Assembly (NCBI RefSeq): GCF_023634845.1
Contig: NZ_JAMLJL010000020.1
Coordinates: 1 to 64,000, forward strand
Reading direction: 5' to 3'
Origin: Flavobacterium amniphilum
GTDB lineage: Bacteria > Bacteroidota > Bacteroidia > Flavobacteriales > Flavobacteriaceae
DNA length: 64,000 bases
The notes beneath the pieces are model-generated. The model ran no database searches and was not told where the DNA came from. It saw only the letters and a program-made list of their open reading frames with translations. Positions 2,807 to 35,940 of this stretch are shown here, piece after piece. Position 1 is the stretch's first letter. Each line of letters starts with the position of its first letter. Both the position numbers and the translations under genes were made by a program.

Positions 2807-4018
2807 ATGAATTTTAAGAATATCTTTTTAGCTTCATTACCGGTTATGTCTTTATTTGTTGCTTCATGTTCAAATGATGACGAGGAACAGAAATTTGAGT
2901 ATACAGTTCCTGAAACGTATACTTTTGAAAGAAACGCAGCTACAACTGTTGACTTTGGAGGTCAAACGAACAGATTGTTGATGTTACAGGAAATGGGTAA
3001 CTATATCAAAAACCAAGCTACTGCTGGTGCTGTTGCTGATGATGCTAAATTATCAGACATGTACACAAATACAAACAGTCCTTTCGCTACTGCTGAATTA
3101 AACGCTGCTACTGATAAACAGTTGAAAAATAAAACAGCTGCTTCAAGAGATTTCTTCGTAAACTTCGGTGGTGGAGGTTCTTCTGTTGAACAGGCAAGCG
3201 TAAGAGGTTTCTTCGAAACACAATTTGATAATGCTGATGCTGCGAGTCAAGGTGTTGCAGCTTCTAACGGTGTTGCAGGTTTTTATGTGGATGGCTCTTC
3301 TAAAAGATTATATGATGCTAACGGTTTAGAGCCTCAACAGATCCTTTTAAAAGGTATGATGGGAGCTTGTTTAATGGATCAGGTATTGAACAATTATTTA
3401 AGTGTTTCAGTTCTTGACGAAGGTAACAACCGTAAAAATAATGATGATAAAGTTCTTGAAACTGGTAAAAACTATACTAAAATGGAACACCTTTGGGATG
3501 AAGCTTATGGTTACATCTACGGAGCTGGTGGTGGTAAATACTGGGATAGCTACATTAACCAAGTGAATGCTGATGCTGATTTCAACACTGTAAAAGCTGA
3601 TATCAATGCTGCTTTCAGAAAAGGTAGAGCAGCTATCGTTGCAGGTGACTATAAAACACGTAATGAGCAAATCAAGATCATTAAAGAGAAATTTTCTATT
3701 GTTCCTGCTGTAAGAGCGGTGTTCTACTTAAAAGAAGGTAAAGCTAAGTTAACTGCTGGTGATGACGGAATCAAAGCTTTCCACGCTTTGTCTGAAGGAT
3801 ACGGTTTTATCATGAGCTTAAGATATACTAACAAGCCTGGAACAAACAATCCATACATGACTAAAGCTGAAGTAGACGCTATCTTAACTGAATTGATGGC
3901 TGGTACAGCTAAGCACGGTCTTTGGGATATCGATTACCTGAATTCACACATCGATGGTTTAGCTACTAAAATCGCTGAGAAATTCGGATTTACTGTTGCT
4001 CAGGCTCAGTCAATCTAA
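2807..4018 (+). CDS. DUF4856-type lipoprotein
   Basis: A lipoprotein of 403 residues: signal peptide ending in VASC with C21 as the lipidated cysteine, then an acidic linker (SNDDEEQ) as is common for surface-bound lipoproteins. The mature part begins YTVPETYTFER and continues with helix-rich sequence (GQTNRLLMLQEMGNYIK), which I associate with DUF4856. Proteins of this family are usually encoded beside imelysin-like lipoproteins, as here. No catalytic motif is visible. It is predicted to sit on the outer membrane and help iron (or other metal) acquisition; that role is inferred only from neighbours. A terminator follows, so it may be expressed more strongly than the genes downstream. Confidence 0.75.
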   Translation: MNFKNIFLASLPVMSLFVASCSNDDEEQKFEYTVPETYTFERNAATTVDFGGQTNRLLMLQEMGNYIKNQATAGAVADDAKLSDMYTNTNSPFATAELNAATDKQLKNKTAASRDFFVNFGGGGSSVEQASVRGFFETQFDNADAASQGVAASNGVAGFYVDGSSKRLYDANGLEPQQILLKGMMGACLMDQVLNNYLSVSVLDEGNNRKNNDDKVLETGKNYTKMEHLWDEAYGYIYGAGGGKYWDSYINQVNADADFNTVKADINAAFRKGRAAIVAGDYKTRNEQIKIIKEKFSIVPAVRAVFYLKEGKAKLTAGDDGIKAFHALSEGYGFIMSLRYTNKPGTNNPYMTKAEVDAILTELMAGTAKHGLWDIDYLNSHIDGLATKIAEKFGFTVAQAQSI

Positions 4019-16045: not shown

Positions 16046-16195
16046 TGGGCGTGCCCCAGTCTGGTGGTTTCGGAAGTTTTAACCTATATTTCATAATTTT
16101 CTACCACCAGCCTGCGTCAGGCTATCCGCTGCAAGTCCTCGGTCGTACCTCCCTGTGGGCTTTCCGCTGCTATCCTTCACGCGTTCTGTCAATAA
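16046..16195. repeat. GC-rich structured intergenic element
   Basis: This stretch is clearly richer in GC than its surroundings. It holds an 8-bp inverted repeat, CTGGTGGT (16061-16068) with ACCACCAG (16103-16110). It also holds two related words, CTATCCGCTGCAAGTCCT (16122-16139) and GGGCTTTCCGCTGCTATCC (16158-16176). I recall near-identical words as a recurring intergenic element in many Bacteroidetes genomes, with no assigned function; that is memory, not a search. It starts 11 bases upstream of cobB on the reverse strand. The rest of the spacer, 16196-16440, holds clustered TTAGTCCTTAG and ACTAATCA words. Confidence 0.6.
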
Positions 16196-33393: not shown

Positions 33394-33768
33394 TTGAAAA
33401 CAATCATTTACATAGGAATAGGAGGAGGAATTGGTAGTGTCTTGCGCTATCTGACGAATCTGATAGCCGGGAAATTTTTCAATTCGGCGTTTCCCATGGG
33501 GACTTTTCTGGTCAATTGTATAGGATGTTTATTGATAGGATTGTTTTTCGGGTATTTTGAGAAAAACAATTTGTTGTCAAAAGATTTAAAACTGTTTTTG
33601 ATTACCGGTTTGTGTGGCGGTTATACCACTTTTTCGGCTTTTTCAGTTGAAAACGTAGGTTTAATCCAGAATCATCAAACGGGAACAGCCTTACTGTATA
33701 CAGCTTTAAGTATCATAATCGGTTTTACGGCAACTTGGTGCGGAATATTAATTGCTGCCAAATTATAA
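33394..33768 (+). CDS. crcB: fluoride channel CrcB/Fluc
   Basis: A protein of 124 residues with four membrane helices, the family length. It forms a dual-topology dimer that exports fluoride. The signatures GGGIGSVLRYL, GTFLVNCIGCLLIG (pore asparagine) and GGYTTFSAFSVE (central sodium site and Phe-box) are intact. It starts at TTG (33394), 6 bases after the YfhO stop, since no ATG is available before the first motif. The stop overlaps the next gene as TAATG. No fluoride riboswitch can precede it in this arrangement. Confidence 0.92.
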   Translation: MKTIIYIGIGGGIGSVLRYLTNLIAGKFFNSAFPMGTFLVNCIGCLLIGLFFGYFEKNNLLSKDLKLFLITGLCGGYTTFSAFSVENVGLIQNHQTGTALLYTALSIIIGFTATWCGILIAAKL

Positions 33769-35042
33769 TGAAAAAAGTACTCATCATAACTTATTATTGG
33801 CCTCCAGCAGGCGGACCGGGCGTACAGCGCTGGCTGAAATTTGTCAAATATCTTCCGGATTTTGATATTCAGCCTGTAGTCTATGTACCGGAAAACCCTA
33901 TGTATCCCATTGTTGATGAAGGTTTGGTAGGAGAAGTTTCGGAAAAAGCGATAATCTTAAAAAATAAAATTGTTGAACCATACGGTTTGGCATCCATTTT
34001 CTCAAAGAAAAATACAAAAGGAATCAGTTCGGGAATTATTCCCAATCAGAAGAAGCAGACATTTTTGCAAAAGATGATGCTTTGGGTACGCGGAAATCTG
34101 TTTATTCCCGATGCCAGGATTTTATGGGTAAAACCTTCAGTAAGTTACTTAAAGAAGTATATTAAGGAAAACGGAATTGATACTATTATAACTTCAGGAC
34201 CACCACACAGTCTGCATTTGATTGGTTTACAGTTAAAAGAAGATTTAGGTGTGAAATGGCTGGCCGATTTCCGTGATCCCTGGACGACGATTGGATATCA
34301 TTCTGCATTGAAACTTTCAAAATACGCCGACAGAAAGCACAAATTACAGGAAAGTACTGTTCTAAATACGGCCGATACGATTATTGTAACCAGTAAAACA
34401 ACCAAAGTTGAATTTGAACGCCTGACATCGAAGCCAATCGAAGTGATTACAAACGGTTATGATGTGGAAAAGGTTGTGAAGCAGCCTTTGGATGAAAAAT
34501 TCACATTGGCGCATATTGGTTCGTTTTTATCGGATAGGAATCCTAAAATTTTATGGGAATCCATCAGTGAGCTGATTCATGATAATGAAGAATTTGCCCG
34601 TTATTTCGAATTGAAGTTGATGGGAAAAGTGAGTCAGGAAGTTTTAGATACGATAACAGAATCCGGATTAAATGATTATTTGAACAATCTGGGGTATGTA
34701 TCGCATCAAGAAGCGGTCGAACACCAGAGAAAATCACAGGTTTTGTTGTTGATTGAAATTGATTCGGAGGAAACGAAAAGTATTATTCCGGGTAAAGTGT
34801 TTGAGTATATTGTTTCAGAAAGACCGATTGTGGCTATTGGACCGAAAGATTCTGACTTTGCCGAAATCATCACGTCAACCAACACCGGCACTTTCTTTAC
34901 CTATACTGAGAAAGAAAGATTAAAAGCAACCATTTTAGCTCATTTTGAGAAATACTTACAAAGGGAATTAAAAGTATTTCCTGTTGGTTTGCAGCAATAT
35001 TCCCGTAAAAACCTTACCGGACAATTATCCAAATTAGTATAG
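33768..35042 (+). CDS. glycosyltransferase, GT4-like
   Basis: A predicted cytosolic, membrane-associated glycosyltransferase of 424 residues with GT-B fold. The N-terminal Rossmann half begins MKKVLIITYYWPPAGGPGVQR (donor-binding glycine-rich loop follows YWPP). The C-terminal half holds HIGSFLSDRNPKILWESI and PGKVFEYIVSERPIVAIGP, the nucleotide-sugar site of GT4 enzymes. The start ATG overlaps the crcB stop. Together with YfhO it may glycosylate an envelope component; acceptor and sugar are unknown. Confidence 0.85.
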   Translation: MKKVLIITYYWPPAGGPGVQRWLKFVKYLPDFDIQPVVYVPENPMYPIVDEGLVGEVSEKAIILKNKIVEPYGLASIFSKKNTKGISSGIIPNQKKQTFLQKMMLWVRGNLFIPDARILWVKPSVSYLKKYIKENGIDTIITSGPPHSLHLIGLQLKEDLGVKWLADFRDPWTTIGYHSALKLSKYADRKHKLQESTVLNTADTIIVTSKTTKVEFERLTSKPIEVITNGYDVEKVVKQPLDEKFTLAHIGSFLSDRNPKILWESISELIHDNEEFARYFELKLMGKVSQEVLDTITESGLNDYLNNLGYVSHQEAVEHQRKSQVLLLIEIDSEETKSIIPGKVFEYIVSERPIVAIGPKDSDFAEIITSTNTGTFFTYTEKERLKATILAHFEKYLQRELKVFPVGLQQYSRKNLTGQLSKLV

Positions 35043-35059
35043 TTTTCCTTTTGACCGGA

Positions 35060-35150
35060 TTTCCCTAGCCCCGGTTGAAACGGCATCCTTTTGAATTGTT
35101 TGTCAAAACAATTTAAAAGATAGAGTGGAAGACGGGAAACAGCTCCTAAA
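35060..35150 (+). ncRNA. structured RNA-like element (recurrent flavobacterial intergenic motif, Flavo-1-like)
   Basis: A 14-bp stem forms between CTTTTGAATTGTTT (35088-35101) and AAACAATTTAAAAG (35106-35119) with loop GTCA; the only non-Watson-Crick pair is G-T. It is flanked by CTAGCCCCGGTTGAAACGG on the left and GACGGGAAACAGCTCCTAA on the right; TTTCCC (35061-35065 region) can pair with GGGAAA. I recall these flanks as strongly conserved around a variable hairpin in many Flavobacteriia spacers, possibly the Rfam Flavo-1 motif. This is memory and needs a covariance-model search. Confidence 0.5.
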
Positions 35151-35156
35151 AAAGAA

Positions 35157-35184
35157 AACTCCGTAGTATGGCGACCACGGAGTT
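35157..35184 (-). terminator. terminator of the 35242-35940 gene
   Basis: AACTCCGT and ACGGAGTT form an 8-bp stem; on the reverse strand it is followed by TTTCTTTTTT. Confidence 0.75.
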
Positions 35185-35241: not shown

Positions 35242-35940
35242 TTATCTTTTATTTCTTACTGATTCATCCTCTTTATTGTCGGAAGAATCTTCAATTTTAG
35301 CTTTTGTACCATCTGCTTTATAGTAGTAGTAATCGTCGTCATCGTTTTCATAACCACCACCTCTAGGGTAATCGTTTCTTGGATAATCGTTTCTTGGAGA
35401 TTCATAGCCTCTTGGGTAATCATATCCGTAGCTTCTTCCTTTTACGTTTCCGTACATGTTGATGATGCATCTTTTACGGTCATAAACGATTCGTAATCCA
35501 CCAATTTGTGTCAGTGCGAAACTGTTGTATTTCATGTACACGGTACCAATTCTGTTTACTCTGTCGAAAGCATCATAGTTGATAAATGTGTTTCCAACTC
35601 TTCTAACTCTTCCGAAAGCATCACGCTCGATACGAACTCCGTAGTTTACCGGATGTCTTTCTACTGTTACGGTTCCTCTTTTACCTGCGGCTTTGAAATA
35701 ATAACCGTCATCTGTATCAGAGTCTTGCGGACGTGTATTGAAGTCGAAATCTCCGTTAGGGAATACATAAAATTCAATTCCACGTTCCATAAATTTGATT
35801 GGTTCAGCATCACGGTAATCTACATGGTGTCTTACAGTTGCTTTGCCTTGGTTGTCAGAAAAAACAGGGTTTTCTGACGCGTAGGCCATACTTCCTGCCA
35901 GGAAGATGCTGGCCATTACTAATGTAATTTCTTTTTTCAT
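35242..35940 (-). CDS. secreted protein of unknown function with Asp/Tyr-rich tail
   Basis: A protein of 232 residues: signal peptide MKKEITLVMASIFLAGSMAYA, then a beta-rich domain with short repeats (RIERDAFGRVRRVGNTFINYDAFDRVNRIGTVYMKYN), each resembling a turn-strand unit. The C-terminal part has PRNDYPRNDYPR repeats, followed by ENDDDDYYYYK. I do not recognise a named family. The tail looks disordered and may bind metal or cell wall. Own terminator downstream. The 271-base spacer upstream (35941-36211) shows only the promoter of the divergent peptidase. Confidence 0.65.
   Translation of the reverse strand: MKKEITLVMASIFLAGSMAYASENPVFSDNQGKATVRHHVDYRDAEPIKFMERGIEFYVFPNGDFDFNTRPQDSDTDDGYYFKAAGKRGTVTVERHPVNYGVRIERDAFGRVRRVGNTFINYDAFDRVNRIGTVYMKYNSFALTQIGGLRIVYDRKRCIINMYGNVKGRSYGYDYPRGYESPRNDYPRNDYPRGGGYENDDDDYYYYKADGTKAKIEDSSDNKEDESVRNKR

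Follow-up and report, generated by a model that had tools for sequence, protein, structure and literature searches.

What kind of object is the hairpin that separates two convergent genes in the genome of Flavobacterium amniphilum? The stretch of DNA analysed here (the window, 64,000 nucleotides of contig NZ_JAMLJL010000020.1) carries in this spacer a 14-bp stem with variable-looking arms, bracketed by sequence that recurs in flavobacterial spacers. The original prediction, made from the letters alone, took a conserved frame around a variable stem to point to RNA and proposed a link to the Rfam family Flavo-1. The hairpin and the convergent gene pair are both present (Table 1), with a stem formed by CTTTTGAATTGTTT and AAACAATTTAAAAG (13 Watson-Crick pairs and one G.U). 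The proposed link proved right, because a search with the Rfam covariance models matched RF01705 along its full length and above its gathering cut-off (E = 1.8e-9), as the sole family to exceed its own cut-off in the window. The conserved ...AGCTCC of the window copy extends 3 bases beyond the end of this match. The lack of both an Rfam match and a second copy had been named as grounds for dropping the idea; RF01705 was found, and so was a weaker second match elsewhere in the window. The window element is a correctly recognised member of a family already known, and its interesting part lies in the apical hairpins (tips) that Flavo-1 copies share and swap and in their indifference to gene orientation.

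Table 1. Features of the Flavo-1 locus and related sites in the window.
Feature	Position	Strand	Basis or remark
Flavo-1 element (RF01705), full model 1-76	35063..35143	+	cmscan, 56.0 bits vs gathering cut-off of 42
Left arm of conserved frame, TAGCCCCGGTTGAAACGGCATC, short ('GGCATCC') frame type	35066..35087	+	alignment A1 and covariance-model alignment
Apical hairpin, 14 pairs, loop GTCA; part that varies between copies	35088..35119	+	35088-35101 pairs with 35106-35119
Right arm of conserved frame, ATAGAGTGGAAGACGGGAAACAGCTCC	35120..35146	+	alignment and flank information content in G103
Glycosyltransferase neighbour (Pfam PF13439), mechanical ORF	33735..35042	+	stop 20 bases 5' of the Flavo-1 element
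232-aa ORF neighbour, convergent, no Pfam match	35242..35940	-	ORF list and Pfam
Terminator-like hairpin in the reading direction of the - strand gene, outside Flavo-1	35157..35184	-	consensus scan, 1 vs 0.3 in shuffles
Second, diverged Flavo-1-like copy, arms GCGTGAAGGATAGCAGCGG ... GCAGCGGATAGCCTGACGC	16111..16195	-	32.4 bits, below cut-off

A 2010 study (PMC2864571) introduced Flavo-1 as a candidate structured RNA, and Rfam gives RF01705 the type Gene; sRNA. The family has the same frame and variable apical hairpin as the window copy, which matches it at full length and comes from the same order; no family-level difference was apparent. Excerpts of the open PMC literature on Flavo-1 or RF01705 assign it no function, and a transcriptome study of F. 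psychrophilum gave no clear clue (PMC9723704). The wider neighbourhood of the window copy includes a CrcB-family ORF (PF02537; 33394-33768, + strand) directly 5' of the glycosyltransferase and an M28 peptidase ORF with a secretion-system C-terminal sorting domain (PF18962; 36185-37393, + strand).

Aligned copies share the consensus frame TAGCCC[C/T/A/G]GAT.... In our reading of the alignments, its pairs are split by a pair of 3x3 loops, each with G.A mismatches as closing pairs, and an A/G mismatch lies further outward. The frame comes in two types, GGAAATCC with GATTG and GGCATCC with GATA, and our classifier sorted the copies of the relative G103 into 46 long-long, 34 short-short and 12 mixed. 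The window copy, which is of the short type, has by inspection GGTTG/GGAAGACGGG, as does the copy at locus L015, and a G/A in place of the usual A/G mismatch. Related copies combine the same inner part with other outer arms (GCGTGAGGG...), and the second copy in the window has outer arms of the GCGTGA type. In G103, conservation of the flanks tapers off over some 20 bp on the upstream side and 15 bp on the downstream side. Some apical hairpins, such as those in 2982-3077 of locus L324 and 1501-1596 of L015, contain palindromes that may resemble REP sequences (TGAACTTGTTTCAGGATC; TGAGCCTGTCGAAG).

The fold of Flavo-1 is real. In an alignment of 45 high-scoring copies, the 8 pairs of the frame give 360 cells, of which 99.2% are paired and 56 have changed on both sides, compared with 13.6 (sd 2.7) after shuffling (0 of 500 shuffles). 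The covariation score was likewise raised (0.453 vs 0.157 shuffled; 0 of 500). One frame pair shows all four Watson-Crick types, and sliding the partner columns by 1 to 3 destroyed the covariation signal. Two of the five covariation measures did not exceed their shuffled values, namely the number of frame pairs that show any two-sided change (4 vs 3.5) and the number of further pair types (9 vs 9.5). The alignment, the wobble counts given below and these compensatory changes all back the earlier description of a conserved frame with a variable but paired stem. If the repeat reading given below is right, covariation by itself is not enough to distinguish RNA genes from palindromic repeats of DNA.

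The wobble pairs reveal which strand is folded. An initial count of G.T against A.C (34:6 in 98 copies) used copies that over-represented high covariance scores, and wobbles were therefore recounted in G103 and in the genome of F. amniphilum on copies found with our own sequence-only scanner, which found 0 in reversed controls. The + strand gave 49:7 in G103 (80 matched-arm copies of 92), or 11:2 when distinct hairpin events are counted, and 10:0 in F. amniphilum (18 copies from 30 loci). The G103 stretches had been chosen around covariance matches above the cut-off, from 83.6 down to 43.9 bits; with scores reaching this far below the top, a lone A.C could hardly have hidden a copy. Predicted folding also favours the + strand over the - strand, in 67 of 91 copies when RNA parameters are used and in 71 of 91 with DNA parameters. 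For the window copy (35050-35160), RNA folding gave -27.2 kcal/mol on the + strand (z = -2.2, equalled by 3 of 200 shuffles) and a z of -0.05 on the - strand (equalled by 92 of 200). The + strand accepts G.T, and the corresponding wobble of the - strand is for the most part not accepted; what is conserved is therefore the + strand as a folded single strand. Because G.T is permitted in RNA and single-stranded DNA alike, the wobble bias cannot tell the two apart. A folded + strand may be either, and the original pointer to RNA is only half carried: a folded single strand matters, and the step from there to an RNA gene or a cis-acting part of an mRNA has against it the gene orientations, promoter counts, species differences and shared tips described below.

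If Flavo-1 were a true non-coding RNA, as its Rfam entry has it, all or some copies would yield a small structured RNA that works in trans or belongs to an mRNA. The compensatory pairs, the excess of G.U over A.C on the + strand, the G.A-closed internal loops and the stabler + strand are all consistent with this. Furthermore, Table 1 of PMC2864571 carries the entry 'Flavo-1 y n n Bacteroidetes' (for RNA?, cis-reg? and Switch?), and several 5' transcribed regions of F. psychrophilum overlap Flavo-1 matches according to PMC9723704. The same study, however, describes matches that seemed indistinctly sense or antisense to transcribed regions, with many outside them. The copies of G103 show a similar indifference: by a simple ORF rule, 28 of 91 copies are sense and 29 antisense to tandem genes, 21 lie between convergent and 7 between divergent genes, 2 are within ORFs of 78 and 85 aa, and 4 received no call. 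Nor is there an excess of promoters. The -7 box TAnnTTTG lies upstream of the + strand in 8 of the 91 G103 copies (8.8 when shuffled) and on the - side in 10 (13.2 when shuffled), and our -33/-7 pattern was found at 0 of 91 on either strand. An autonomous sRNA gene was rejected for want of an upstream promoter excess on either side by these patterns. The scarce conservation of the flanks past about 20 bp also argues against an RNA gene, and we regard the RNA explanation as rather unlikely, ranking it below a REP-like repeat whose folded strand is recognised.

Gene context also bears on whether Flavo-1 could be a passive 3'-end element, a stabiliser or attenuator of mRNA whose strong hairpin is useful either way round. 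Such roles are ascribed to E. coli REPs in PMC12306157. Consistent with this possibility, the copies of G103 prefer convergent over divergent gaps (21 vs 7, against 31:45 in background gaps; Fisher p = 0.0036), so that the convergent setting of the window copy is a tendency in that genome. It is not one in F. amniphilum itself, where convergent gaps are not preferred: of 18 copies, 3 lie between convergent and 5 between divergent genes, 4 are sense, 5 antisense and 1 is within a 412-aa ORF. The - strand also folds, and a T tract follows its hairpin in 31 of 91 copies, a weak excess over the 19 of a control stretch; on the + strand there is none (16 of 91 vs 19). An intrinsic terminator was rejected for lack of a T-tract excess after the + strand hairpin, and the terminator-like site of the window is separate from the element (Table 1). 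A function served by either strand would leave the bias of G.T over A.C unexplained, and related species differ in the presence of copies. These counterpoints make a 3'-end role improbable.

In the genome of F. amniphilum, scoring 150 of 1,048 candidates gave at least 30 Flavo-1 matches at E 0.001 or better, 24 of them above the cut-off. Three relatives searched singly gave at least 108, 99 and 75 (150 candidates scored in each). Across the genus, 113 of 121 sampled genomes have matches, with 8 lacking any under the stricter filters used in that survey, and 59 of the 121 have at least 35 matches by table count. Order-wide, matches occur in 95 of 296 genomes, chiefly in the same family and one other. 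The left-arm pattern of the window copy was found in five named records, from one Flavobacterium MAG, two Flavobacteriaceae MAGs and two Kaistella. The window copy had no match on plasmids or phages, a weak test given that the tip varies between copies.

Individual loci, compared in relatives with one genome per species, differ in whether they carry the element. The glycosyltransferase of the window was found in 54 of 60 genomes, and among the 30 loci listed, our scanner detected no Flavo-1 at the 29 outside F. amniphilum. For most of these loci the silence means little because a different gene lies downstream. The 232-aa neighbour is present in 2 of the 29 and is adjacent and convergent in one, G009, which retains the gene pair of the window around a spacer in which the scanner saw no Flavo-1. 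At a second locus, L053, a copy is present in 7 of 30 large genomes by scanner (that of the query included), and four further genomes have interrupted or partial copies by eye. In the orthologues L173, L175, L198 and L199 of this locus, one Flavo-1 arm is interrupted by short inserts (TGCTTCGCC...; ATTATCTCAC...) that themselves resemble small repeats. We resolved no target-site duplication around Flavo-1 copies.

The variable tips are also shared across unlike frames. G103 has 64 distinct apical hairpins among 92 copies. Copies with the same hairpin differ in frame by a mean of 7.1 (34 pairs, summed counts), compared with 7.8 in 1,419 different-hairpin pairs (87 copies), and 21 additional hairpin-sharing pairs span both frame types. 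Some of these sharers are ordinary duplicates, as suggested by a one-side flank identity of 0.86 or more in three listed same-tip pairs. T-rich tips may also recur by chance, which GC-rich ones such as ATGGCGGGGTTCGCCAT would do less easily. At orthologous sites, tips are swapped. For example, the whole tip differs between G103 and G052 at one site (ACTTTTTTCTTTAAAAAGT vs GTGTCCGCCGCGGCGGACAC) with the rest of the element alike; it also differs between G103 and G114 at site 5383525, where the G114 copy has in addition an insert in one arm.

Orthologous copies were compared more broadly using scanner copies, 37 in G114 (vs 99 covariance matches) and 31 in G052 (vs 75). We found 37 orthologous pairs, or 33 after removing 3 of opposite orientation and 1 degenerate long copy, and 27 with alignable adjacent 60-bp flanks (identity 0.65 or more, a mild filter whose null 95th percentile is also 0.65). 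Seven of the 27 have identical tips; 7 have tips of unequal length and 20 of equal length. The 222 apical stem pairs of the equal-length set comprise 198 unchanged, 13 one-sided and 11 two-sided changes; the frame pairs in the same comparison comprise 295, 11 and 7, respectively. If the two sides changed independently at the 13% divergence of the flanks, the expected rate is 0.0058 two-sided changes per pair, or about 1.3 in the apical stems against the 11 observed, in a set of pairs that are partly non-independent because several use one G103 locus. The strictest filter (best BLAST piece) retained 9 or 10 pairs, with 69 unchanged, 3 one-sided and 6 two-sided apical changes in 9 of them; it lists two tip swaps, one being a naming artefact of loop classes. 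The two-sided changes may owe something both to strong selection for pairing and to conversion between copies, and the whole-tip swaps argue for conversion. We rejected the idea that tips are independent mobile hairpins in a small test on 1.2 Mb of G103 (either strand, stems of 6 bp or more), in which loops GGGTT/TTCTTTA occurred 6 times inside Flavo-1 frames and 5 times outside, one outside case being an outer-arm variant.

These observations lead us to favour, at roughly even chances, the reading that Flavo-1 is a REP-like palindrome dispersed through the genome, with a + strand that is recognised when folded and tips that are rewritten between copies. The + strand would be recognised folded, most likely as single-stranded DNA exposed in replication, repair or transfer, with RNA as the other possibility. 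An enzyme may read the frame, made up of the outer clamp and the two G.A-closed internal loops; for the apical hairpin, pairing would be the sole requirement. New copies would settle in spacers, and existing ones may be rewritten when short tracts of recombination or gene conversion between copies import a whole new hairpin. Several points weigh against this reading. G.T tolerance and G.A loops are features of RNA too, strong selection for pairing could yield many two-sided changes even in the absence of conversion, and the copies of F. amniphilum lack the convergent preference seen in G103. The leading strand carries the + strand sense less often (37:62, p = 0.015), which makes it rarer on the lagging-strand template, contrary to the simplest IS200-like prediction; the p-value ranges from 0.005 to 0.11 with the assumed origin and terminus, and this small bias was not used for the favoured reading. 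A stricter version, in which Flavo-1 is a folded-strand DNA repeat and not an RNA gene, akin to attC-like or REP-like sites with a constant frame and tips shuffled by an enzyme or by hairpin-primed conversion, is a tentative proposal that we put somewhat short of even. If the REP-like reading is correct, it would explain the inconsistent relation between Flavo-1 and transcripts in PMC9723704, and the question would shift from the function of an RNA to what recognises the folded strand and how tips are swapped. The shared and swapped tips, the outer-arm variants and the dispersed-repeat behaviour are what the present comparison adds to the description of Flavo-1.

Two known systems resemble such a repeat. 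The attC sites of integrons have conserved imperfect arms and a variable terminal hairpin that needs only to pair, and one strand is recognised folded. The likeness may be one of working principle only: the wobble strand bias and free apical sequence of Flavo-1 would be compatible with it, whereas Flavo-1 is dispersed and does not form arrays. REP/BIME elements and RAYT-linked REPs (PMC3733652, PMC6006769) are likewise short imperfect palindromes with internal mismatches and many dispersed spacer copies. Flavo-1 differs from REP/BIME in its length of about 80 bp, its long variable apical stem and, by inspection of the A1 consensus, its feet (TAGCCC and GGGAAATAGCTCC), which have no GTAG-like tetranucleotide or CGTC. 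Unlike RAYT-linked REPs, it was not found to flank the sampled Y1 transposase genes of the genus with any consistency.

The resemblance raises the possibility that Flavo-1 is a REP mobilised by the Y1/HUH transposases of the genus (TnpA-REP, RAYT). The imperfect palindrome with mismatched internal loops and its dispersal in spacers are consistent with this, as is the occurrence of Y1_Tnp in 87 of the 121 genus genomes, and PMC6006769 reports 'atypical secondary structures' beside its Bacteroidetes subclass 2.6. Flavo-1 density near 20 Y1 genes, sampled from weaker, longer-frame Y1_Tnp matches, was 30 per Mb compared with 11 per Mb in G103, a figure that reflects two copies only. Just 2 of the 20 loci have Flavo-1 within about 1.5 kb, and four genomes without a Y1_Tnp match (G004, G029, G030 and G053) have at least 35 Flavo-1 matches each. 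Mobilisation by these transposases is very improbable, and neither the 20 sampled Y1 loci nor the Y1_Tnp survey of the 121 genomes revealed a mobilising enzyme for Flavo-1.

The Y1 genes themselves fall into two groups. Fourteen of the 20, including that of F. amniphilum, have a variant HxH motif. The other 6 are subclass 2.6-like, with NH[IV]H and Y[IV][HY]NNP motifs, and at 4 of these 6 a different hairpin, CACGCGAA...TTCGCGCG (TTCGCG), and not Flavo-1, lies on both sides. For the 20 loci sampled, Flavo-1 was accordingly rejected as the repeat of a REPtron, in which copies flank tnpA-REP. A background count of the CACGCGAA hairpin pattern in 1.2 Mb of G103 (+ strand) gave 0, which says little because no such gene was seen there. 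The small Y1 genes at loci L314, L316, L321 and L331, with a CACGCGAA/TTCGCGCG hairpin to either side, form REPtron-like units that have a hairpin of their own.
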